Assembly: GCF_000002515.2 (NCBI RefSeq)
Contig: NC_006040.1
Span: 496,001-560,000, forward strand
Length of the DNA stretch: 64,000 bases
Source of the DNA: Kluyveromyces lactis
Taxonomy: Eukaryota; Ascomycota; Saccharomycetes; Saccharomycetales; Saccharomycetaceae
Direction: 5' to 3'
Shown here: positions 40,532 to 59,915 of the stretch, in pieces
Numbering within the stretch: the stretch's first letter is position 1
Layout of the letters: each line of letters starts with the position of its first letter
The notes under the pieces: model-generated
What the model was told of the DNA's origin: nothing
Database searches by the model: none
Seen by the model: only the letters and a program-made list of their open reading frames with translations
Translations under genes and position numbers: made by a program

Positions 40532-42877
40532 TCACCTATGACAGATGGCTACCGTAGAACCACTTTTAGAAGCTTTCGTTACAAGCACTTTAGAATAATC
40601 GTCTAAACATGTAGACTTTATAGAATCTTGTGGTAATACCACCAAACTCTTATTATTAAGTTCGATGTCATTGAAGACATCAACACTCGCAACTGCGGAA
40701 TCAGTTTCGTTAGTCGATATAGTTGTAATATCCAATTTTATCAGAATGGAGGATCTGAGAATCTCTTGCAGTTCTCCAAGAGCAACCAGATGCTCTGAAA
40801 CGGTAACAATTTTGATAGTCTTGGCATGTAATCCCATCACTAATCCCAAGAACAAGGCCATATAGTCAGAACCAGTTAAAGTTGAATTTAGTAGATATAC
40901 AAGAACTGATGTGGGTTGTTGATGAACAACAGTTCCGAAAAGAAGAACGAGGGATGAAGATATTTTGGAAGAAAGCGTACTGAAGAAGTCTTCAGGTAAA
41001 TCATTGAATGACAAAATCCTTGAGATGGACTCACTTTGTTCACCGTTAGGATAGTTTAGTGGTATCAAGAGCGTGGTGTTATTTGCAACTGGAATCTTTC
41101 CAATATAGCCAACCTTTTCTCCCAGTGATGAGAACATGACCTCGCCCTTGAATTTCAATCCAAACAAAGATGAGAACACACGTAACATTTCAAGACCATT
41201 ATCTGCAGATGTCAGGCTATTGTATAAACTGGTCAGTTCAAGAATTTCAGCAGTTCTATCTGACATCAACTTCAAATTCCTAGCATTGACCAATAACGGG
41301 GATTCGTCATCATCAGAAACTACTGTTAGTGCTTCTGTATCTGTCGAAAGTACTTTCTTCAAATGTTTCTTCTCTAAATCTCCCGAATCAGAAGTAAACA
41401 TTTCTTTCCATTCTTCCTGCCCAGAACTAAACGCTTTGATGAACCATAAGGACAACGCAACAGCTTTGGCATTATTAATCACCAATTCAACGGTAGAGAA
41501 ATGCATGTGTTTCAAGTCCTTTGTCTTGCCGACCGTGTTGGGTACTATTTCTGAAGTACTACCGTCAGTTCGTTGTCTTTTCAATTCATTACGATAATGA
41601 TCAGGGAAAATCCACAACGTCAATGGGGTGGTTATAAAAGTTGAAATAAGTGCCATGAAAATGAACATTGCATAAACCTTCTTGGTGATTATACCAGCGT
41701 TCAAACCAGTTGTTAAGACAACAATTTCCACAATACCCTTACATGACATCAAGACACCAACAGCCAAAGATTCTCTCCAGCATAATCCATTTATTTTAGA
41801 TAAAAGAGCACCAGAAACAACCTTCGTTGCAACGGCAATACCAATACTTGCAAAGATGTATCCCCAATCAGAACCTTTATTCAAAAGAGTTAAATCAACG
41901 TTCAAACCAGCAATAGTGAAATAGATTGGTATCATAAGTAAGTTGGGTATATCTTCCATGCGTGCCGTTAATTTCGACACGTAATTGTTTTCTCTAGGAA
42001 CGATAATACCTGCAATAAAAGCCCCAAAAATCGGATGAACACCAATAATATCTGTAAAGTAAGCACTTAGTAGTACAATCACAAGAATCAATAGAGTGGC
42101 AAAAGTGGAAGGGCTATCCCTTTCAAATTCATGGAATCTATTGAACCCCCACTTCAATGTAAGTCTGACTGGATAACAACAGAATAGGAACCAGCCAAAA
42201 GTGCATAACAAAATGTACACGACATTCACTGGGTCTGACTGAGAGTTGGAAAGAATAATACACAAGGCTAGAAGAATCCAGCCTACAACGTCATTGATGG
42301 TACCAGAAGTCAAAACAATGATACCTACTCTTTCTTTCACCAATCTCAACTCGGTAAGAATACGACACAAGACTGGAAAAGCCGTAATCGATAGAGAAAC
42401 GGCAATGAATACCATAAAGACTTTGAATTCAATACCATGTCCGTCCATATAAGCATTATATAAGGGTAATGCAAACAAACACCCAAACCCGAATGGTACA
42501 ATTAACGTCGCCAATCCAATCGAGATAGCTGCCTTGGCATTTCTCTTCACGAAGCTAATATCGACTTCCATCCCCAAGAAAAACATGAACAAAATGATTC
42601 CCAAATTAGCTACAAGGTTCAAACCAGTCACTGAGCCAGCAGGGAAAATGGTTGTGAGATAATTTGGGATCTGTCCAAACACGGTAGGCCCTAGTATGAT
42701 ACCTGCAATAACCTCAGAGATAACTTTCGGTTGCCTAAGTTTCGAAATAAACACATGCAAAACATTCGTAAGTACTAGAATTAACGCTGCTTGAATAAGG
42801 AAAAACGTTATTGGTGAACCAGAGTTATATATGAAAGGATTGACCCCCGAAAGCACACCTCCCACGGTATTAGCCAT
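40532..42877 (-). CDS. KHA1: Kha1, K+/H+ antiporter of the CPA2 family
   Basis: Kha1 exchanges K+ for H+ in Golgi membranes and affects K+ homeostasis and pH. The 781-residue product (S. cerevisiae 873) begins MANTVGGVLSGVNPFIYNSG and has 12 or so membrane spans in residues 25-430. CPA2 landmarks include VISEVIAGIILGPTVFG, the ion-site N-D pair in GTINDVVGWI and the GVHPIFGAFIAGIIVPR segment. A long cytosolic C-terminal domain, with the USP-like folds seen in plant CHX proteins, follows from about 440. It is about 90 residues shorter than in S. cerevisiae, mostly in this tail. It corresponds to YJL094C. Confidence 0.96.
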   Translation of the reverse strand: MANTVGGVLSGVNPFIYNSGSPITFFLIQAALILVLTNVLHVFISKLRQPKVISEVIAGIILGPTVFGQIPNYLTTIFPAGSVTGLNLVANLGIILFMFFLGMEVDISFVKRNAKAAISIGLATLIVPFGFGCLFALPLYNAYMDGHGIEFKVFMVFIAVSLSITAFPVLCRILTELRLVKERVGIIVLTSGTINDVVGWILLALCIILSNSQSDPVNVVYILLCTFGWFLFCCYPVRLTLKWGFNRFHEFERDSPSTFATLLILVIVLLSAYFTDIIGVHPIFGAFIAGIIVPRENNYVSKLTARMEDIPNLLMIPIYFTIAGLNVDLTLLNKGSDWGYIFASIGIAVATKVVSGALLSKINGLCWRESLAVGVLMSCKGIVEIVVLTTGLNAGIITKKVYAMFIFMALISTFITTPLTLWIFPDHYRNELKRQRTDGSTSEIVPNTVGKTKDLKHMHFSTVELVINNAKAVALSLWFIKAFSSGQEEWKEMFTSDSGDLEKKHLKKVLSTDTEALTVVSDDDESPLLVNARNLKLMSDRTAEILELTSLYNSLTSADNGLEMLRVFSSLFGLKFKGEVMFSSLGEKVGYIGKIPVANNTTLLIPLNYPNGEQSESISRILSFNDLPEDFFSTLSSKISSSLVLLFGTVVHQQPTSVLVYLLNSTLTGSDYMALFLGLVMGLHAKTIKIVTVSEHLVALGELQEILRSSILIKLDITTISTNETDSAVASVDVFNDIELNNKSLVVLPQDSIKSTCLDDYSKVLVTKASKSGSTVAICHR

Positions 42878-44030
42878 CGCTGTTTATATTCGAAGAATTA
42901 AGTGGGTATACGTTCCCTTTGACAATCCTTTTCTGATATTAGAACTCACTTGATCCAATACAGTAAAGTCAAGGTTCAATGAAATATCGATATTTTATTG
43001 ATTAGCAGTACTCACAACAATATTGTCTAATATCTAGCATATGTACCTCATCATAAAAAAATGTAAGGTTAAAAGATTCTACTCATCCTATATATTCTCT
43101 GAAGTTAAATGAAAAAGGGTTTTCCAAAATCCCAATCTGTACGAGATTTCAAATGATAATTTTTGTCTTGGTTTTAACAAGAAGATGGGGCTGTCATTTT
43201 CCCCGTCATGATTTCACACGTGAGAATGAAACTATGATAATGAGCATGAAAGGCAGTAGCCTTTCTTTCCAGATGCCTTGGATTGCAAATGTGAAAATGT
43301 GCCGTAGCTTTGGGTGGCTTTGATATTGCATCGAATAGTGAAAGCAAATTTTACACATTTGAATGGTAGGCTCCTAAGTATTGATTTTCTCGAAAGAGGA
43401 AACCAATGAAAAGTGAATTCTCAGCCGTTCAATGCGGTATGAAAAGATCTACTTCGGCTAAGGAAAACACATCTTGGTTGGGTTGTTAATGTTGCTTTAC
43501 AGAGAACAAGAAACTACGCGGGGTACGTCATCTAATTGTATATCAAAGGATCAGCTTTCCTTTCATGAATATGGTGAGTTTGGGAAATGTCATCTTTATG
43601 AACAGTACAACGCACAGCTGGAAGAGACTGCTTACCTACGAGATTTTATTATTCCTTGGGGTAAATGAAAGAGTAAGTGAAAGGCTAGAATAATTCTTAG
43701 TGCAGTGGGCTATCCAAGTCAACTATGACTCACTTGAAGGAAGAATGATGTGTTTTGGTTCCAGCTGGTTTTAAAGGCGGAAAAAAAAGATGTTTATTTA
43801 TGGTGACAAGTTTAGAATTAAGTATAAATAGTCCGCCTAAATCTTCAAGGATTCAATGGAACAAGTTTACTTTTAGGTTCTGAAATACAGTTAATCAAAA
43901 ATATAGGAATAGTTGATCTTTCTGACAGCTGATTTTACACTCAGACCAATTACAAAGATTCGGTGAATGCAAATCTCGAGACAAATACTAGGATGGTAAG
44001 ATAGCAAGAGTTTAATGAAAGTCTAAGTCA
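42878..44030. promoter_or_regulatory. KHA1 / TerD-like gene divergent promoter region
   Basis: This 1.15-kb region separates two diverging genes. A TATA box (TATAAATA) lies at 43823-43830, about 200 bp before the TerD-like ATG, which is typical of inducible yeast genes. GGCGG (43774 region) and a CCGCC shortly after the TATA box flank it. A 59-codon frame at 43489-43668 is too weak to call a gene. Confidence 0.5.
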
Positions 44031-46289
44031 ATGAGTATAGCCATATCGAGAAAGCTGCTATCTAACAGAAAGGCCTTGTATGGTGAGAAAGAATTGTGCA
44101 GCTCTGATCCAATCGAAAGCATTGATGACATACTATTCACCTTTGTTGCTGAGTTAAATAAGTTGGGTTATCAATTTTCAGAAAATGCGCAGGACTATTT
44201 GAGAACACTGTCTGTCAATGAACTAACAGAATTCAGGTCCATGGCGAAGACTGTTCTGGAGGAAGCTTTAGGTGCAGACGTAAAATATGTACCGTTGTTT
44301 CGCAAATTCCCTGAGTCTATTCCTGACAGAAGTCTGTTGGTAGAGGCAGTCTACGAAAGTTTAGGAGATCTGACTCATTTGCTGTTCTTCAACTTTTATG
44401 GATATTGGTCATCGTCCGAGTATAATGGATCATGGTTTGGTAGACAGTATCCCGATTTAGAGTTACAGGAGGCCATTAAGCGTCCTGAATTAATCACTGG
44501 CAAAGAATTGACGACATTGGATATAGTCGGCCGAGGAGTGGTCTTAGAACTTTTCGAAAACCTCGCTAATTCGAAGACTTCAACTTCTGCCTCTGACAAA
44601 GAATTCATCAACTCAGTGATAGCCACTGGGAACGATTGGAAATCTTCTTTACCAGAAGTTATTCCTAGCAAAGAAAACCTTGTGCACATCATTGGTTGCG
44701 CTGCTACAAAATCTGGTCCATTTGATGAGGAATTACAGAAATTGTTTTCCACTCATATCAAGACTGCTACAGATGTTTTACGTCTTGCAGCTTCGTTCTC
44801 TGGATCAGATGTGGCTTTGACTAAGCACACGCGCTTCAAAATATCAAATTCTCAAAGAAAGTTCTTACTGTTCGCGTTAAACAAATTGGATCGTGAAACG
44901 GCAATGGAGGATATACTGAGATTTTTGGGCCTCTGGCTTGTATTAGCTAAATATTTACATGTCAATGCTTACGCTAGCAGATATCCAAACGCAGCCAAAA
45001 TGATCCAAACAATTAGAGGAAACCAAAAATCGATAAAAACCTTCAATAGAACAATTGAAACAGCCTTAAGAGCAAGAAAGGACCTTAAAAATGAAGGCAA
45101 CATGGAAAGCAGTTTAGAATCAATTATACATATTTTGAAAGCAAGGCCTGGTGACTTTGCTCGTCGGTTAGATCACCTTCTGCGTTCATATCCATCTACA
45201 GAGCATGCTCAAATTGTAATTAGCTTTTTGGATGTTGCATCGTCTGTATCGACACCGCTACTTCTGAATCTTTCCACTCATTTTCAATATCGTCATGAAA
45301 TATCACCCATACGTGTTTTCTTGCCAAAAGGCTCTGCAACCAACGCCATTATAGAAGATGAAGACGAGCGCCAGACTTATTCCTCAGAACTCTGTTCAAA
45401 TTTGTATAAGGGCATCGACTCTGTACTGATAGAACGATTCAGTAAATTAGAGCCTTTAGGCAATATCTTTATTGATCCAATATTAGAGGATTACATACCA
45501 CCAATAGGATTGCGGGACGCATCAGAGGCTTTGCATACTTTTGGCAGAGGGTCCAAGATGCGATTTGATAAGAACTCCAAGGTAATTCGGTTGTTCTTAT
45601 ACTGGGAGAATATAAAGGAAACACAAGGCGCAGCACACGAAGGAAGGGTAGATGTTGACTTATCATGTTTGCAGTTATCAGATAACTTCGAAAACAAAGG
45701 AGAAATTGCGTATTACAATTTGGCTAATGGCGCCGTCACACACTCTGGAGATTTCACTGATGCGACGAATGGTGCCGCTGAATTTATAGACGTTAAGTTA
45801 GATGATATCAAGGAAGCATTCCCAGAAACACGCTATATTGCTGTGACAGTTAATTCCTATACTGGTCAAAAATTTAACACTTTCACAGCTAAAGCTGGTT
45901 TCATGATTAGGGACAATATTAGTGGAGAACATTTCGAGCCAAAAACTGTCGAGCAGAAGTTTGATCTTCTATCAGCTTCGAGATTTAATATTCCAATGGT
46001 GCTGGATCTATACGAAAACACAATTATTTGGCTTGACCTCGCCATTTCTCAGAACAAGATTTACAACGTCAACCTCCATGAAAAGACACCACTTGTTGGA
46101 TCACTAGCCAAGTATGCTCTGAACATTTATAGAGAAAAATGCAACCTTTTAAAATTAATGCAACTTCATGGCGAAGCCAGAGCCCAGACTGTATCTGCAC
46201 AGCACGATCCAGAAAAAGATTATGACCATTGTTTCGATGAGAATTTTGCATCAAAGACCGATGAGATAGTGGGGAATTTTCTAATTTAG
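44031..46289 (+). CDS. Large TerD-domain protein of bacterial type
   Basis: The product has 752 residues with no S. cerevisiae counterpart that I know. The C-terminal part reads like a bacterial TerD-family protein: IRLFLYWENI (519-528), GRVDVDLSCLQLSDNFE (538-554), GEIAYYNLANGAVTHSGD (557-574), NGAAEFIDVKLDDI (580-593), YIAVTVNSYTGQKFN (602-616), FEPKTVEQKFDLLSASRFNIP (given by its ends, 635-655) and VLDLYENTIIWLDLAI (657-672). Upstream, ARPGDFARRLDHLLR (371-385), SSVSTPLLLNL (404-414) and RVFLPKGSA (428-436) also match what I recall of long bacterial TerD proteins of the MXAN_6230/SCO0930 type. TerD domains bind Ca2+ and are tied to tellurite, phage and stress resistance; the role here is unknown. 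No signal peptide or membrane span is present. Codon use looks like that of its neighbours, so any transfer is old. Confidence 0.8.
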   Translation: MSIAISRKLLSNRKALYGEKELCSSDPIESIDDILFTFVAELNKLGYQFSENAQDYLRTLSVNELTEFRSMAKTVLEEALGADVKYVPLFRKFPESIPDRSLLVEAVYESLGDLTHLLFFNFYGYWSSSEYNGSWFGRQYPDLELQEAIKRPELITGKELTTLDIVGRGVVLELFENLANSKTSTSASDKEFINSVIATGNDWKSSLPEVIPSKENLVHIIGCAATKSGPFDEELQKLFSTHIKTATDVLRLAASFSGSDVALTKHTRFKISNSQRKFLLFALNKLDRETAMEDILRFLGLWLVLAKYLHVNAYASRYPNAAKMIQTIRGNQKSIKTFNRTIETALRARKDLKNEGNMESSLESIIHILKARPGDFARRLDHLLRSYPSTEHAQIVISFLDVASSVSTPLLLNLSTHFQYRHEISPIRVFLPKGSATNAIIEDEDERQTYSSELCSNLYKGIDSVLIERFSKLEPLGNIFIDPILEDYIPPIGLRDASEALHTFGRGSKMRFDKNSKVIRLFLYWENIKETQGAAHEGRVDVDLSCLQLSDNFENKGEIAYYNLANGAVTHSGDFTDATNGAAEFIDVKLDDIKEAFPETRYIAVTVNSYTGQKFNTFTAKAGFMIRDNISGEHFEPKTVEQKFDLLSASRFNIPMVLDLYENTIIWLDLAISQNKIYNVNLHEKTPLVGSLAKYALNIYREKCNLLKLMQLHGEARAQTVSAQHDPEKDYDHCFDENFASKTDEIVGNFLI

Positions 46290-46883: not shown

Positions 46884-47486
46884 ATGAGCTACGGTATCAA
46901 GCCTGATGTGACATCATTGGATGATGATCTTAAAGAATCAAGAAGTAAGAAGTTCAACAAACATGATATAACAGAAATAAAGAGATGGATTTATGCTATT
47001 ATTGAAGAACAATCACCTGACGACAGTCTTTTGGATGCATTAAAAGATGGTACTGTGCTATGTAAGCTTGCTAATAGACTCTTAAAAGAAGAAACAGGAG
47101 TGTCCGATTCAATGAAATGGAAAAGTTCAAGAATTGCGTTTGTTCAAATGGAACAAATAAGTATGTTCTTACAGTTCGCAACTAAGTACGGAGTTCCACA
47201 AGATGAACTTTTCCAGACTGTTGATCTCTATGAGGAAAAAGACCCAGCAATTGTCTACCAAACCATTAAGTCATTATCCAGATATGCAAATTCCAAACAC
47301 CCTGACCTGTTCCCAGTAATAGGTCCACAATTATCAACAAAAAGGCCGAGACCACCTGTGAAAGGAAAACCATCGCACTTAAAGAATGTTGGATGGAGTA
47401 CTGTAGAATATGGTTACATGAAGGGCGCAAACCAATCCACCGAGGGTATTGTTTTCGGAAATAAACGTGATATAACAATGAATTGA
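46884..47486 (+). CDS. SCP1: Scp1, calponin/transgelin-like actin bundler
   Basis: Scp1 cross-links actin filaments in cortical patches, together with fimbrin. The 200-residue product (the same length as S. cerevisiae Scp1, YOR367W) has a single N-terminal calponin-homology domain (about residues 28-135: ITEIKRWIYAIIEEQ, LKDGTVLCKLANRLL, FLQFATKYGVPQDELFQTVDLYE, the last given by its ends). A C-terminal calponin-like repeat (YGYMKGANQSTEGIVFGNKR) provides the second actin contact. The proline/lysine-rich linker RPRPPVKGKP may bind SH3 domains of actin regulators. Confidence 0.96.
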   Translation: MSYGIKPDVTSLDDDLKESRSKKFNKHDITEIKRWIYAIIEEQSPDDSLLDALKDGTVLCKLANRLLKEETGVSDSMKWKSSRIAFVQMEQISMFLQFATKYGVPQDELFQTVDLYEEKDPAIVYQTIKSLSRYANSKHPDLFPVIGPQLSTKRPRPPVKGKPSHLKNVGWSTVEYGYMKGANQSTEGIVFGNKRDITMN

Positions 47487-47827: not shown

Positions 47828-47943
47828 TGGTTGCGAAGAGATTCGAACTCTTGCATCTTACGATACCTGAGTGTTCCCAACTGTAAGGTTGGTTAAGATT
47901 GGTATCTTGAATCAGGCGCCTTAGACCGCTCGGCCACACAACC
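47828..47943 (-). tRNA. tRNA-Leu(CAA) with intron
   Basis: On the minus strand the gene starts GGTTGTGTGGCC and ends CGCAACC plus discriminator A. The acceptor stem pairs throughout (one T-G). The A box (TGGCCGAGCGG) and B box (GTTCGAATC) are intact. The anticodon stem CCTGA/TCAGG encloses the loop TTCAAG-C with anticodon CAA. A 34-nt intron (47872-47905) interrupts the loop one base after the anticodon, which is the canonical position; removing it leaves 82 nt with a long variable arm, as for Leu. S. cerevisiae tRNA-Leu(CAA) also carries an intron of about this size. The CCA end is not encoded, as usual in eukaryotes. Confidence 0.97.
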
Positions 47944-55643: not shown

Positions 55644-58600
55644 TCATAGCAAGAAGTAGAACACGAAGGTGGTTAGGGTTACGAAAACGTTTGCTGAGGC
55701 GATATTCCCATTGCCTTCGTATACCAGAACACTAGATGACGTTTGTTGAGTAGAAGTAGCAGTTGTTATTACTGGTGCGGAGCTGGATTGTGAAGGAGCT
55801 GCTGAAGACGGAACAGAAGATGATACGGGTGATGTAGGGGTAGCAAGGGTGGTAGTGTGTTCTTCTTTATTTGTGGTGTTTGGAACGTTTGTTGCTGGTG
55901 TAGTTCTAGTCACTCCAGAAGATGATGTTTCGGTGTCAGTTGAAATGATATTAGGTGTTGATTCAGTGGATGATTTCGGTAATACTGTTTCTGCTGTTTC
56001 AACTGTCGCAGGCTCTTCAGAATTAATAGCAGAAGATGTCTCAACAGGTGCTGATGTTCCTCTTGAGGGTTCCTGGGTCGTTGGTGTGAAAACTGTAGAA
56101 GAAGACCAAGAGGAAGTGATACGTTCATCTGAGGTGACTGTTATCTCAGCAGGAGGTGCTATCGTGGTACCTGAGGGAAGTTCAGTGGTAAAATCTGTTG
56201 GCGATGTTCCAGATGTGGTAGAATCTAATGAAGCGGAGGTTGAAATCGAGGATGACCCAGTAGATGGTGTAGTAACAGATGAACTAGATGATGACTCTGA
56301 TGTCTCAGATAGAGGACACCAAGTAGTATACTTTGTTTCTATACCTTTAGTCGTTGTTGTCACTGTAGATAAGAAAGCACTTGTGCTGTACGTTATCTCT
56401 TTGCCTGTAGAATCCGTTGAAACAGTCGAAATCTCAGATGTAACACAATCGGAACACTTTGGAGCAATTGTCACTGGTGTTTCGAGACTAGGACTTGATT
56501 CTGGGGTATGTGTATCATCTGTACTTTCAGTTGTGATTGAACTTTGTGTTGGTGTTTCAGAAGTTGTTGAAGTTATTGAATTAGTAGTTGGTACTGATGA
56601 TGATGAGGGAGTTGACTCAATTGTGGTTTCGGTAGAAGGTTGTTCAGACGTTGGTGATGACGCTGTCTCAACTGCCGTCTCTGAAGGTTGCTCAGTCGTC
56701 TCAGTCAAAGGAGTTTCACTAGTATCAATGGTAGTCTCAGTCGAAAATTGCTCAGATGATGAGGGTGTTGACGTTGATTCAGTAGTGGTCTCTGTGGAAG
56801 ATTGTTCAGTTGACTCCATAGTGGTTTCCGTCGAATATTGCTCGGTTGTTCGTGGAGAAGTTGATTCTGCAGTAGTTTCGATTGACGACTTCTTAGTTGA
56901 TGAAGTTGACTCAATTGCAGTTTCAGTTGATGACTGCTCAGTCGATTCAGTGGAAACCTCTGTTGAAGGAAGTTCAGATAGTGAGGATGATGTCGACTTT
57001 GTAGTACTTTCTGTTAAGGATTCCTCATTTATTGGACACCATGTAGTGTATTCAGTAACAATGCCTTTAGTGGTAGTCGTTACTGTTGACAAATAAGCGC
57101 TGGTTGTCTTGGTTGTGACGCTTCCATGCGAATCAGTTGACGTTATAGGAATGTGTGATGTAATACATTCAGAGCATTTCTCGGTAAGAGTTGTGGACAG
57201 CTGAGATTCAGAGCTTGTTGTTTCAGTGGAGGAAGGCAGTTCAGAGTTCCCTGAGGTTGTTGAAGAAACTGAAGATGCTTGTGCAGTATCAGAGGAAGTA
57301 GTACTAGATTGAGAAGTGATATCTTCTTCGGTAATTGGACACCATGTAGTGTAAATAGTTACAACTCCCTTTGTTGTTGTTGTAACCGTTGAAAGTACTG
57401 CGCTTGTAGTTACAACTGTTGTGCTACCTTCTGAATTTGTACTTGTTAATGATATTTCTGATGTTTCGCAAGAAGAGCATACAGATGTGGTTTTTGTCGT
57501 TTTAGGACTTTCCTCCTCATCGCTAGTTGACACGGAAAAGAGTGTCGAAGAAGTTGAGGTGGTTTCTGTCAGTGGGCACCATGTTGTATATTCTGTAACT
57601 ACGCCATTTGTTGTAGTTGTTACAGTAGATAATACAGCTGTTGTGCTATGTGTTGTTTCAATTCCCGATGAATCGGTAGTTGTGATCGGAATGACTGATG
57701 TTGTACAGCTATCACAATGAGAATCATAAGACTCTGAATCTGTTGAGACAGTTGGCTTTAAGGTGGTAAAACTTTGCATACAATCTTCATCAGAGCATTC
57801 TGATGTTACGCTCGTATCGAAATCGCCACTCGAAGTTTCAGAATTAACAGTCTCGGTATTGTGAATTGTAGAATCGGTGAAAGAGGATGGAGTGGAAGAA
57901 GGACTGATTGTTTGCGATGTTACTATTTCAGAAGTACTGACAGATGTGTAGGTCGAAGGTGAACATGGTTTGCTCTCACAAACCTCGGTACTGATGATTA
58001 CTGTCACCAATTTATGCGTGGTAATGGTACTGATTTCAACAGTTTCAGATTCAGCGGTGCTGATTGAGGGAACATCAGAAGACGTCGATTCAATAGTCGT
58101 GCCATTTTGGGAGACCGTAGTCGTTGCATCAGTACTGGTTAGCTGAGATTCACTAATTGATTCAAATGATTCGGTAGATGTCCATTCCTCGATGGATACG
58201 TCTTCGGTAGATGTAGGACTTTCAGAGGACTCGGTTGATTCCGCGGTGGATACATTTTCGCTAGTTGAAGCAGCTTCGGTAGTCGATGTCGATTCATCAG
58301 TTGATACATCTTCGGTAGATGTAGGACTTTCAGAGGACTCGGTTGATTCCGCGGTGGATACATTTTCGCTAGTTGAAGCAGCTTCGGTAGTCGATGTCGA
58401 TTCATCAGTTGATACATCTTCGGTAGATGTGGGACTTTCAGAGGATTCGGTTGATTCACCGGTGGATACATTTTCGCTAGTTGAAGCAGCTTCGGTAGTC
58501 GATGTCGATTCATCAGTTGATACATCTTCGGTAGATGTAGGACTTTCAGAGGACTCGGTTGATTCCGCGGTGGATACATTTTCGCTAGTTGAAGCAGCTT

Positions 58601-59915
58601 CGGTAGTCGATGTCGATTCATCAGTTGATACATCTTCGGTAGATGTGGGACTTTCAGAGGATTCGGTTGATTCACCGGTGGATACATCTTCGGTAGATGT
58701 AGGACTTTCAGAGGATTCGGTTGATTCCGCGGTGGATACATTTTCGCTAGTTGAAGCAGCTTCGGTAGTCGATGTCGATTCATCAGTTGATACATCTTCG
58801 GTAGATGTAGGACTTTCAGAGGACTCGGTTGATTCCGCGGTGGATACATTTTCGCTAGTTGAAGCAGCTTCGGTAGTCGATGTCGATTCATCAGTTGATA
58901 CATCTTCGGTAGATGTGGGACTTTCAGAGGATTCGGTTGATTCACCGGTGGATACATCTTCGGTAGATGTAGGACTTTCAGAGGATTCGGTTGATTCCGC
59001 GGTGGATACATTTTCGCTAGTTGAAGCAGCTTCGGTAGTCGATGTCGATTCATCAGTTGATACATCTTCGGTAGATGTAGGACTTTCAGAGGATTCGGTT
59101 GATTCACCGGTGGATACATCTTCGGTAGTTGAAACAGATTCAGATGCGGATGTTTCAGTTAATGGACACCAGGTTGTATACACAGTAACAACACCGTTTA
59201 CTACCGTTGTATGAGTAGAAAGGGAGGACGATTCAACTGTGGTGATAGTGACTCCTCGTTCATCGGCTGTGGTGAGAGTAGAAGATCGAATAATTTCCGA
59301 ACTTTCTGAATCAGCAGCTGTTGACTGAGTTAACGCATCTGAACTCTCTTCTTCAAGAATGGTTGATGAAGTCAGTGTATTAGGAGTAGTAGCGGTGTGC
59401 TCAAGATCTTCAGTAGAATATTTATTTGTAGTATCAGTCTCTTCATCAGTGTCGGTAACTGAAACGTAAATTGGAACTGAGTGCACATACGTAGTATCAG
59501 TGCAAATATAATCTTCATCGCATACTTCAGTAGAAATAGTCACTGTTTGCCAGGATGTGATGGACATCTCGGTAGTGTCCTCAGGTTCCGTGCTGGTAGT
59601 CCCAGGTTCTGTACCGGTAACCTCAGCGGAAGAAGCGGTGCCACTCTCAGTTTCAGTCAATGGGCACCATGTAGTGAAAACTGTCACCACATCATCCAGT
59701 GTCAATGTACTGAGTGAAACCAAAGCAGGAGAAGTGGTTACAACTTCTTTTTGTCCAGTTGTCGATGTTACTGAAACCCATGTTGTGGTTTGTTCTTCAG
59801 ATTCAACATTTTCAGAGTAGCTCGACACCGTTGAAGTGTTTGAATAAATATGTTCATAAGCCAGAACTATTTCACTGGCAATAAAACCAGAAATACACAT
59901 TCCTGATAAGCGCAT
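55644..59915 (-). CDS. Fig2/Aga1-type GPI-anchored cell-wall adhesin with WCPL modules
   Basis: The product has 1423 residues, extremely rich in Ser, Thr and Glu. It has a signal peptide (MRLSGMCISGFIASEIVLA) and a C-terminal GPI signal (NGNIASANVFVTLTTFVFYFLL, given by its ends), so it should be attached to the cell wall. Six modules with T-T-W-C-P-[LI]-x-E occur, most preceded by LSTVTTTT[NK]G. Cysteine pairs include CESKPC and CSDEDC (CX4C) and four CxxC segments followed by ITSTDS-like sequence. WCPL and CX4C domains are known from the mating adhesins Fig2 and Aga1. The middle (about residues 260-575) is a tandem array of 18/36-residue repeats. TGAAAC cores upstream suggest pheromone control. 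The repeat number is likely to vary between strains. Confidence 0.9.
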   Translation of the reverse strand: MRLSGMCISGFIASEIVLAYEHIYSNTSTVSSYSENVESEEQTTTWVSVTSTTGQKEVVTTSPALVSLSTLTLDDVVTVFTTWCPLTETESGTASSAEVTGTEPGTTSTEPEDTTEMSITSWQTVTISTEVCDEDYICTDTTYVHSVPIYVSVTDTDEETDTTNKYSTEDLEHTATTPNTLTSSTILEEESSDALTQSTAADSESSEIIRSSTLTTADERGVTITTVESSSLSTHTTVVNGVVTVYTTWCPLTETSASESVSTTEDVSTGESTESSESPTSTEDVSTDESTSTTEAASTSENVSTAESTESSESPTSTEDVSTGESTESSESPTSTEDVSTDESTSTTEAASTSENVSTAESTESSESPTSTEDVSTDESTSTTEAASTSENVSTAESTESSESPTSTEDVSTGESTESSESPTSTEDVSTDESTSTTEAASTSENVSTAESTESSESPTSTEDVSTDESTSTTEAASTSENVSTGESTESSESPTSTEDVSTDESTSTTEAASTSENVSTAESTESSESPTSTEDVSTDESTSTTEAASTSENVSTAESTESSESPTSTEDVSIEEWTSTESFESISESQLTSTDATTTVSQNGTTIESTSSDVPSISTAESETVEISTITTHKLVTVIISTEVCESKPCSPSTYTSVSTSEIVTSQTISPSSTPSSFTDSTIHNTETVNSETSSGDFDTSVTSECSDEDCMQSFTTLKPTVSTDSESYDSHCDSCTTSVIPITTTDSSGIETTHSTTAVLSTVTTTTNGVVTEYTTWCPLTETTSTSSTLFSVSTSDEEESPKTTKTTSVCSSCETSEISLTSTNSEGSTTVVTTSAVLSTVTTTTKGVVTIYTTWCPITEEDITSQSSTTSSDTAQASSVSSTTSGNSELPSSTETTSSESQLSTTLTEKCSECITSHIPITSTDSHGSVTTKTTSAYLSTVTTTTKGIVTEYTTWCPINEESLTESTTKSTSSSLSELPSTEVSTESTEQSSTETAIESTSSTKKSSIETTAESTSPRTTEQYSTETTMESTEQSSTETTTESTSTPSSSEQFSTETTIDTSETPLTETTEQPSETAVETASSPTSEQPSTETTIESTPSSSSVPTTNSITSTTSETPTQSSITTESTDDTHTPESSPSLETPVTIAPKCSDCVTSEISTVSTDSTGKEITYSTSAFLSTVTTTTKGIETKYTTWCPLSETSESSSSSSVTTPSTGSSSISTSASLDSTTSGTSPTDFTTELPSGTTIAPPAEITVTSDERITSSWSSSTVFTPTTQEPSRGTSAPVETSSAINSEEPATVETAETVLPKSSTESTPNIISTDTETSSSGVTRTTPATNVPNTTNKEEHTTTLATPTSPVSSSVPSSAAPSQSSSAPVITTATSTQQTSSSVLVYEGNGNIASANVFVTLTTFVFYFLL
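58180..59130. repeat. Coding tandem repeats of 108 bp (2 x 54 bp) in the adhesin
   Basis: Nearly identical 108-bp units, each encoding STEDVSTDESTSTTEAAS plus TSENVSTAESTESSESPT, occur seven times. Extra 54-bp half units (STGESTESSESP) are interspersed, so the ancestral unit is probably 54 bp (18 codons). Copies differ by only a few bases, e.g. the alternation of STAE and STGE, which indicates recent expansion or conversion. All reading frames stay open across the array because the unit length is a multiple of three, which explains long spurious ORFs on both strands. Confidence 0.95.

Follow-up and report, generated by a model that had tools for sequence, protein, structure and literature searches.

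Several described systems come close to the gene analyzed here. Canonical TerD proteins (PF02342; structures 2kxt, 2kxv, and 3ibz) are short, stand-alone proteins of ~190 residues, and the binding of nucleotide derivatives has been proposed for TerD domains (PMC7159879). Jumbo phages carry Ter-system proteins that were proposed to counter rival phages and xenobiotics, and the accessible excerpt of that study describes short Ter components, with neither a long form nor a eukaryote among them (PMC7824862). In anaerobic gut fungi (chytrids), a TerD_like gene is listed as acquired from Firmicutes (PMC10978972), a case that parallels the present candidate as a TerD-like bacterial transfer into fungi, although the recipients there belong to a different phylum of fungi and the donor is placed in Firmicutes. 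Bacterial genes set in conserved yeast blocks, two of them in K. lactis, were reported by Rolland et al. 2009 (PMC2715888); they share with our locus the arrangement of single bacterial-type genes between conserved yeast genes, whereas the two single K. lactis cases of that article are KLLA0B05269g and KLLA0C09218g, and the terms "TerD", "tellur", "KHA1", and "SCP1" are absent from its main text. We found no published report of this yeast gene in the literature searched (supplementary tables may list it), and no paper was found by name or tag for SCO0854, MXAN_6230, NF041916, or two yeast gene tags. A long protein with a TerD-like C-terminal part is catalogued as NCBIfam NF041916 (the MXAN_6230/SCO0854 RING family), and the yeast protein shares with it this C-terminal part and the same order of blocks, the best stretch covering residues 171–725, whereas the yeast form lacks the RING finger of the family and scores under its 600-bit threshold.

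The locus described here encodes a large, intact Ter-type protein that is fixed in what appears to be a model yeast's reference genome, with its best-scoring relatives of known source located in jumbo-phage contigs. The analyzed stretch of K. lactis DNA (64,000 nucleotides, hereafter the window), which we take to be part of chromosome D, had been read in an initial annotation as holding an intact 752-codon ORF between KHA1 and SCP1, and the coordinates and the intact frame were borne out, with a Kha1-related protein and a calponin-homology protein encoded on either side (Table 1). Five codons before its start the ORF is preceded by a stop in the same frame (44016), and 2000 shuffles of its bases never left the frame open. 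The gene is single-copy, being the sole match in its own genome (10,729,447 bases, 7 contigs). Its codon usage, described beforehand as ordinary, falls inside the range of the 12 other ORFs of the window, albeit near the low end with one ORF lower, and its GC3 is 0.36 vs. 0.28–0.39 in the same 12 ORFs. That the gene is a contaminant, an artefact of assembly, or a passenger undergoing decay is extremely improbable, and nothing was found in favour of it: the gene sits among yeast genes in a contig of 1.7 Mb, its codon usage is host-like, and the protein database holds a cluster of 11 member sequences whose representative differs from the window protein at 1 of 752 residues, while the retention of conserved positions (given below) speaks against decay as well.

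Table 1. Features of the TerD-like locus, with positions in the window and, where applicable, in the 752-residue protein
Feature	Protein residues	Window positions	Strand	Remarks
KHA1 homologue (Na/H-exchanger protein)		40532–42877	-	Flanking gene; named relatives are Kha1 proteins; control for divergence
Upstream region common to KHA1 and the TerD-like gene		42878–44030	.	TATA element at 43823; no motif clearly above chance
TerD-like long protein gene	752 residues	44031–46289	+	Intact ORF; related to the MXAN_6230/SCO0854 family
Segment aligned to the RING finger of phage relatives	96–160	44316–44510	+	Window protein has no Cys in this segment
Conserved core with many Arg and Asp	244–434	44760–45332	+	KTATDVLR, EDILR, RPGDFARRLDHLLR, RVFLPKG; from alignments
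TerD-like domain	505–615	45543–45875	+	Pfam PF02342, E = 3e-6, 27.3 bits
C-terminal signature	731–752	46221–46286	+	Common to phage relatives and most of the P0006 clade
Calponin-homology protein		46884–47486	+	Flanking gene; SCP1 in the initial annotation

The promoter had been called TATA-type, and an element does exist 208 bases before the ORF, the only one in the upstream region; chance alone would supply about two over that length, and the remark therefore counts for little. With both strands counted, TGACTCA and CACGTG occur once each (0.18 and 0.30 expected, respectively), and STRE, Yap1, and heat-shock elements were all absent from the region upstream of the TerD-like gene. Two other features of the window were recorded along the way. 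A tRNA gene of 116 bases (47828–47943, minus strand, 46.9 bits with Rfam), ~1.5 kb past the TerD-like gene, was missed by the tRNA finder when run in bacterial mode, probably because of an intron inside the gene. Further downstream, positions 55644–59915 on the minus strand encode a Ser/Thr-rich protein of 1423 residues with flocculin type 3 repeats, and the other strand of this gene holds long open frames that look like by-products of the repeats.

The TerD domain in the yeast protein is genuine, although weak and divergent. Its Pfam score exceeds the gathering cut-off of 25.3 bits, so that the absence of a TerD match, named beforehand as a possible refutation, did not occur; the domain had been expected at residues 518–680, however, and was found further upstream and shorter, aligning to positions 6–121 only of the 187 in the profile. 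When five canonical TerD proteins of a single Bacillus genome were compared with the yeast protein profile to profile, they aligned to the same residues with E-values of 4e-6 to 6e-6 and probabilities of 85–87%. We call the domain divergent because no Pfam TerD match was obtained in any of three relatives scanned (P0006, P0010, and P0052), and because a TerD-family search of the K. lactis genome returned no match and missed the gene itself. The acidic DxD and H(S/T)GD motifs align with those of canonical TerD, and the putative metal-site residues D541 and D543 (DxD), D574, E584, and D587 are conserved; the long acidic run of canonical TerD (GDGDDE) is not conserved, and, unlike the canonical proteins, the yeast domain is fused behind ~500 residues. 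No solved structure matched the long protein by sequence.

The similarity to the long proteins extends well beyond this domain. The NF041916 model matched with an E-value of 5e-118 and 395.5 bits (scored on the stand-in protein P0001), and its conserved blocks are kept in order and content along the whole yeast protein. The window protein misses the 600-bit equivalog cut-off, as do all nine proteins that matched the family in the scan. The seven motifs quoted in the initial annotation are all there (at residues 372, 406, 428, 540, 580, 635, and 665), but the TerD-type order that it confined to residues 371–690 is only part of the picture, as strong conservation runs through the whole protein; its suggestion that the N-terminal part might match the same bacterial proteins was confirmed by alignment. 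In a 124-row alignment that includes the yeasts, 111 columns are conserved at 90%, Arg being the commonest residue (18 columns) and Asp occupying 13. Neither the window protein nor any of the four yeast rows shows the pattern CGH...CPxC of the RING finger, and the window protein has no Pfam match to Prok-RING. Of 104 outside rows, 8 carry the pattern (P0024, P0025, P0027, P0028, and P0029 among them), and in the aligned segment a single pattern Cys is left in P0017, P0019, and P0026 and none in the yeast rows shown. The yeast protein is probably functional despite the loss of the RING finger, since it retains 84 of the 89 columns whose conservation across the 104 outside rows reaches 95% or more; the five changed columns involve no loss of a charged residue.

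Relatives were sought among 5.8 billion proteins, which gave 318 matches at E ≤ 0.001, and the best 120 of these 318 were examined by name. Within these 120, the named fungal relatives belong only to K. dobzhanskii (63% identity to the window protein) and three Lachancea species, namely L. nothofagi and L. lanzarotensis (60% each) and L. "fantastica" (57%); the L. lanzarotensis database entry is already titled "TerD family protein". Closest to the yeasts is a well-supported group of sequences (P0006–P0017, P0019–P0023, P0026, P0121, and P0122), hereafter the P0006 clade, in which P0006–P0016 share 44–50% and P0017 and P0019–P0023 share 35–41% identity with the window protein, P0018 being a fragment. 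From P0024 onward, identities drop to 32–36%, with the match still covering most of the length, and many of these proteins are named as bacterial or likely so. The P0006 clade had no member in the bacterial and archaeal genome scan, and in the virus-contig scans there was no member of the P0017/P0019 type and, for the P0006–P0016 type, nothing above 36% identity. Matches numbered 11 in 50,697 phage records, with identities of up to 30.8%, and 31 in 72,556 plasmid records, where the highest identity among the 20 listed was 32.4%; none of them was of the P0006-clade type. On account of this absence from the scanned genomes, virus contigs, phages, and plasmids, the P0006 clade probably comes from unannotated eukaryotic, perhaps yeast, assemblies. 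An altered genetic code in this clade was considered and rejected, as there was no excess of Ser-to-Leu or Ala-to-Leu changes.

In collections of known origin, the two best-scoring loci lie on virus contigs of ~360 kb (L038 with 419 bits and L002 with 412 bits), followed by another virus locus with 350 bits and by the best bacterial locus with 345 bits. Both top proteins share 35–36% identity with the yeast protein over most of the length, together with the C-terminal signature and the conserved core, but they carry a RING finger, which the yeast protein lacks. The L002 record contains strong matches to a T4-type capsid (E = 8e-97) and to a terminase (E = 1.5e-13); the L038 record has a short capsid match only (E = 2e-7) and no terminase match. 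Genes beside L002 match phage families of tRNA nucleotidyltransferase and DNA methyltransferase, and a gene beside L038 matches a phage family of NAD-dependent DNA ligase. Another virus record of 437,043 bases (loci L172, L244, and L245) contains a relative that carries the RING finger and falls near the yeast clade, and in a 43-row tree L172 groups with P0024 and P0025, adjoining the yeast clade. Searches of this record for Gp23, Terminase_6N, and the NCLDV capsid returned nothing, the two capsid searches having been run without a positive control, and we do not call it a phage because no capsid or terminase match was obtained.

Trees of 120, 77, 38, and 43 rows placed the yeasts inside the P0006 clade, which in turn adjoins the phage group. 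Yeasts, P0006 clade, and phage group are united with support values of 99/93 for 38 rows and 100/96 for 43 rows; in the larger of these two trees, the added row L181 fell within the named outgroup, which therefore did not form one side of a branch. The nesting in a bacterial clade that had been anticipated was thus found in a modified form: the yeasts do nest among prokaryotic, phage, and other relatives, but the best-scoring ones of known source are in jumbo-phage-like contigs. The C-terminal signature follows the same grouping, as it occurs in 30 of 206 proteins and in 2 of 147 loci (L002 and L038), these 147 including 73 bacterial genome loci of which none has it, counts that involve some loci cut by contig ends and a pattern drawn up after the sequences had been inspected. 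It is missing in P0007, P0018, and P0026 of the P0006 clade, and a later scan detected it in 4 of 18 loci, two of which are on the contigs of L002 and L038.

A relation of the gene to the phage lineage is, from this sequence evidence, probable. The alternative, that a bacterial chromosome was the donor and that the phages independently took their own copies from related bacteria, we consider rather unlikely, although bacterial relatives are widespread (73 loci in the bacterial and archaeal genome scan) and the placement test leaves it some room. Holding the yeast group together with the main clade, part of which is mostly bacterial and part viral, was 16.7 log units worse (p-AU 0.067), and holding it together with the Bacteroidota group was 17.1 log units worse (p-AU 0.057), so that neither was rejected at 0.05, the groups having been defined after the tree was inspected; moving only the yeasts into the main clade was rejected (p about 5e-47). 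On the other side, no bacterial genome locus exceeded 35% identity, and both the free tree and the C-terminal signature unite the yeasts with the phage group. As two rival placements were not rejected, a donor from the phage lineage is favoured rather than proven. Transfer from outside fungi into yeasts is a known kind of event, and our data suggest a phage-related origin as a more specific, unproven version of it.

A horizontal origin from beyond fungi is itself indicated with high confidence. Its converse, an old fungal or eukaryotic gene inherited vertically and lost in most lineages, would fit the presence of the gene in several yeasts, its apparent location on the KHA1 contig of K. dobzhanskii, and the P0006 clade, which may be eukaryotic; we nevertheless regard it as very unlikely, because the path lengths between genera are far too short when compared with KHA1, because the gene is assigned by its tags in L. 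lanzarotensis and L. "fantastica" to a chromosome other than that of KHA1, and because the named family members are otherwise prokaryotic and viral. The bacterial origin proposed in the initial annotation is supported to this extent: a broad, vertically inherited set of fungal homologues was not seen among the 120 matches examined, and the pattern of divergence misfits simple descent.

This pattern also suggests that the gene moved again, between yeast genera. In K. dobzhanskii the TerD-like gene and KHA1 are both found on a contig of 236,150 bases, apparently the same one, and the locus is therefore probably common within Kluyveromyces, where the two KHA1 products are 82% identical. The tags of the two genes point to different chromosomes in L. 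lanzarotensis and L. "fantastica". Path lengths within Kluyveromyces were 0.66 for the TerD-like gene vs. 0.26 for KHA1, and between L. lanzarotensis and L. "fantastica" 0.32 vs. 0.19, while between Kluyveromyces and Lachancea they were 0.82–0.89 vs. 2.15–2.53. The TerD-like gene has thus evolved faster than KHA1 within genera, yet it spans less than half the KHA1 distance between them, a large contrast that rests on one control gene, whose tree came with a long-branch warning. Since the between-genus distance is small relative to KHA1, either a later yeast-to-yeast transfer or two acquisitions from close donors would account for it. Judging from these branch lengths against the single control, the gene likely passed between Kluyveromyces and Lachancea after the genera had split. 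Separate acquisitions from related donors, with no passage among yeasts, would agree with the chromosomal positions, which differ by gene tag, and with the moderate support (93/94) for pairing the Kluyveromyces proteins with each other; all five yeast proteins, however, group as a single clade (100/100), and separate donors would therefore need to be nearly identical, which makes this explanation unlikely. Chromosome ends are a common home of transferred genes, and the low gene number in the L. nothofagi tag (P0003, LANO_0D00144g) suggests, from the tag only, a position near such an end.

For the function of the protein we propose a tentative scheme. By alignment, the acquired form is a complete long protein, with ~500 residues containing many conserved Arg and Asp followed by the divergent TerD-like domain, and it is without the RING finger of the phage relatives. 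The acidic pocket of the TerD-like domain would bind a divalent metal, probably calcium, and the Arg-rich core would bind an anionic ligand, e.g., a nucleotide derivative. Such binding could then switch the protein to a form able to shield the cell from chemical or oxidative stress, and this form would work without the partner once served by the RING finger. A canonical TerD match was absent in 6 of 7 searched bacterial genomes that carry the long protein; the long protein therefore seems independent of TerD partners, and it is from this apparent independence that a self-contained protein is proposed. Taken alone, the mechanism of a self-contained, metal-dependent, ligand-binding stress protein is speculative, and we would not yet expect it to hold in full. 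Less likely than not is a broader scenario, in which yeasts captured a stress or rival-exclusion protein of giant phages that lost its RING finger, turned into a functioning yeast gene, and spread between genera, so that K. lactis would be running a part of the machinery of jumbo-phage conflicts. The joint reading to which we incline, with some reserve, is that of a yeast-acquired gene from a likely phage-related lineage, with a product that is likely a cytosolic, metal-dependent stress protein, and with a later passage from yeast to yeast. As the K. lactis gene is amenable to deletion and assay, the role of this long protein family is open to experiment.

Searches against the PADLOC-DB anti-phage defence models matched 0 of 4 proteins at E ≤ 0.01. 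A functional partner was also sought among the bacterial neighbour genes, and none emerged because the shared families stem mainly from related Paenibacillus records. NAD-related neighbour genes may bear on the function of the long TerD-like protein: an ORF family beginning with GRFQPFHKGH, a start that we presume to be nucleotidyltransferase-like, was observed near the long TerD-like gene at nine loci, seven viral and two bacterial (L003, L009, L014, L018, L027, L041, L051, L100, and one more).
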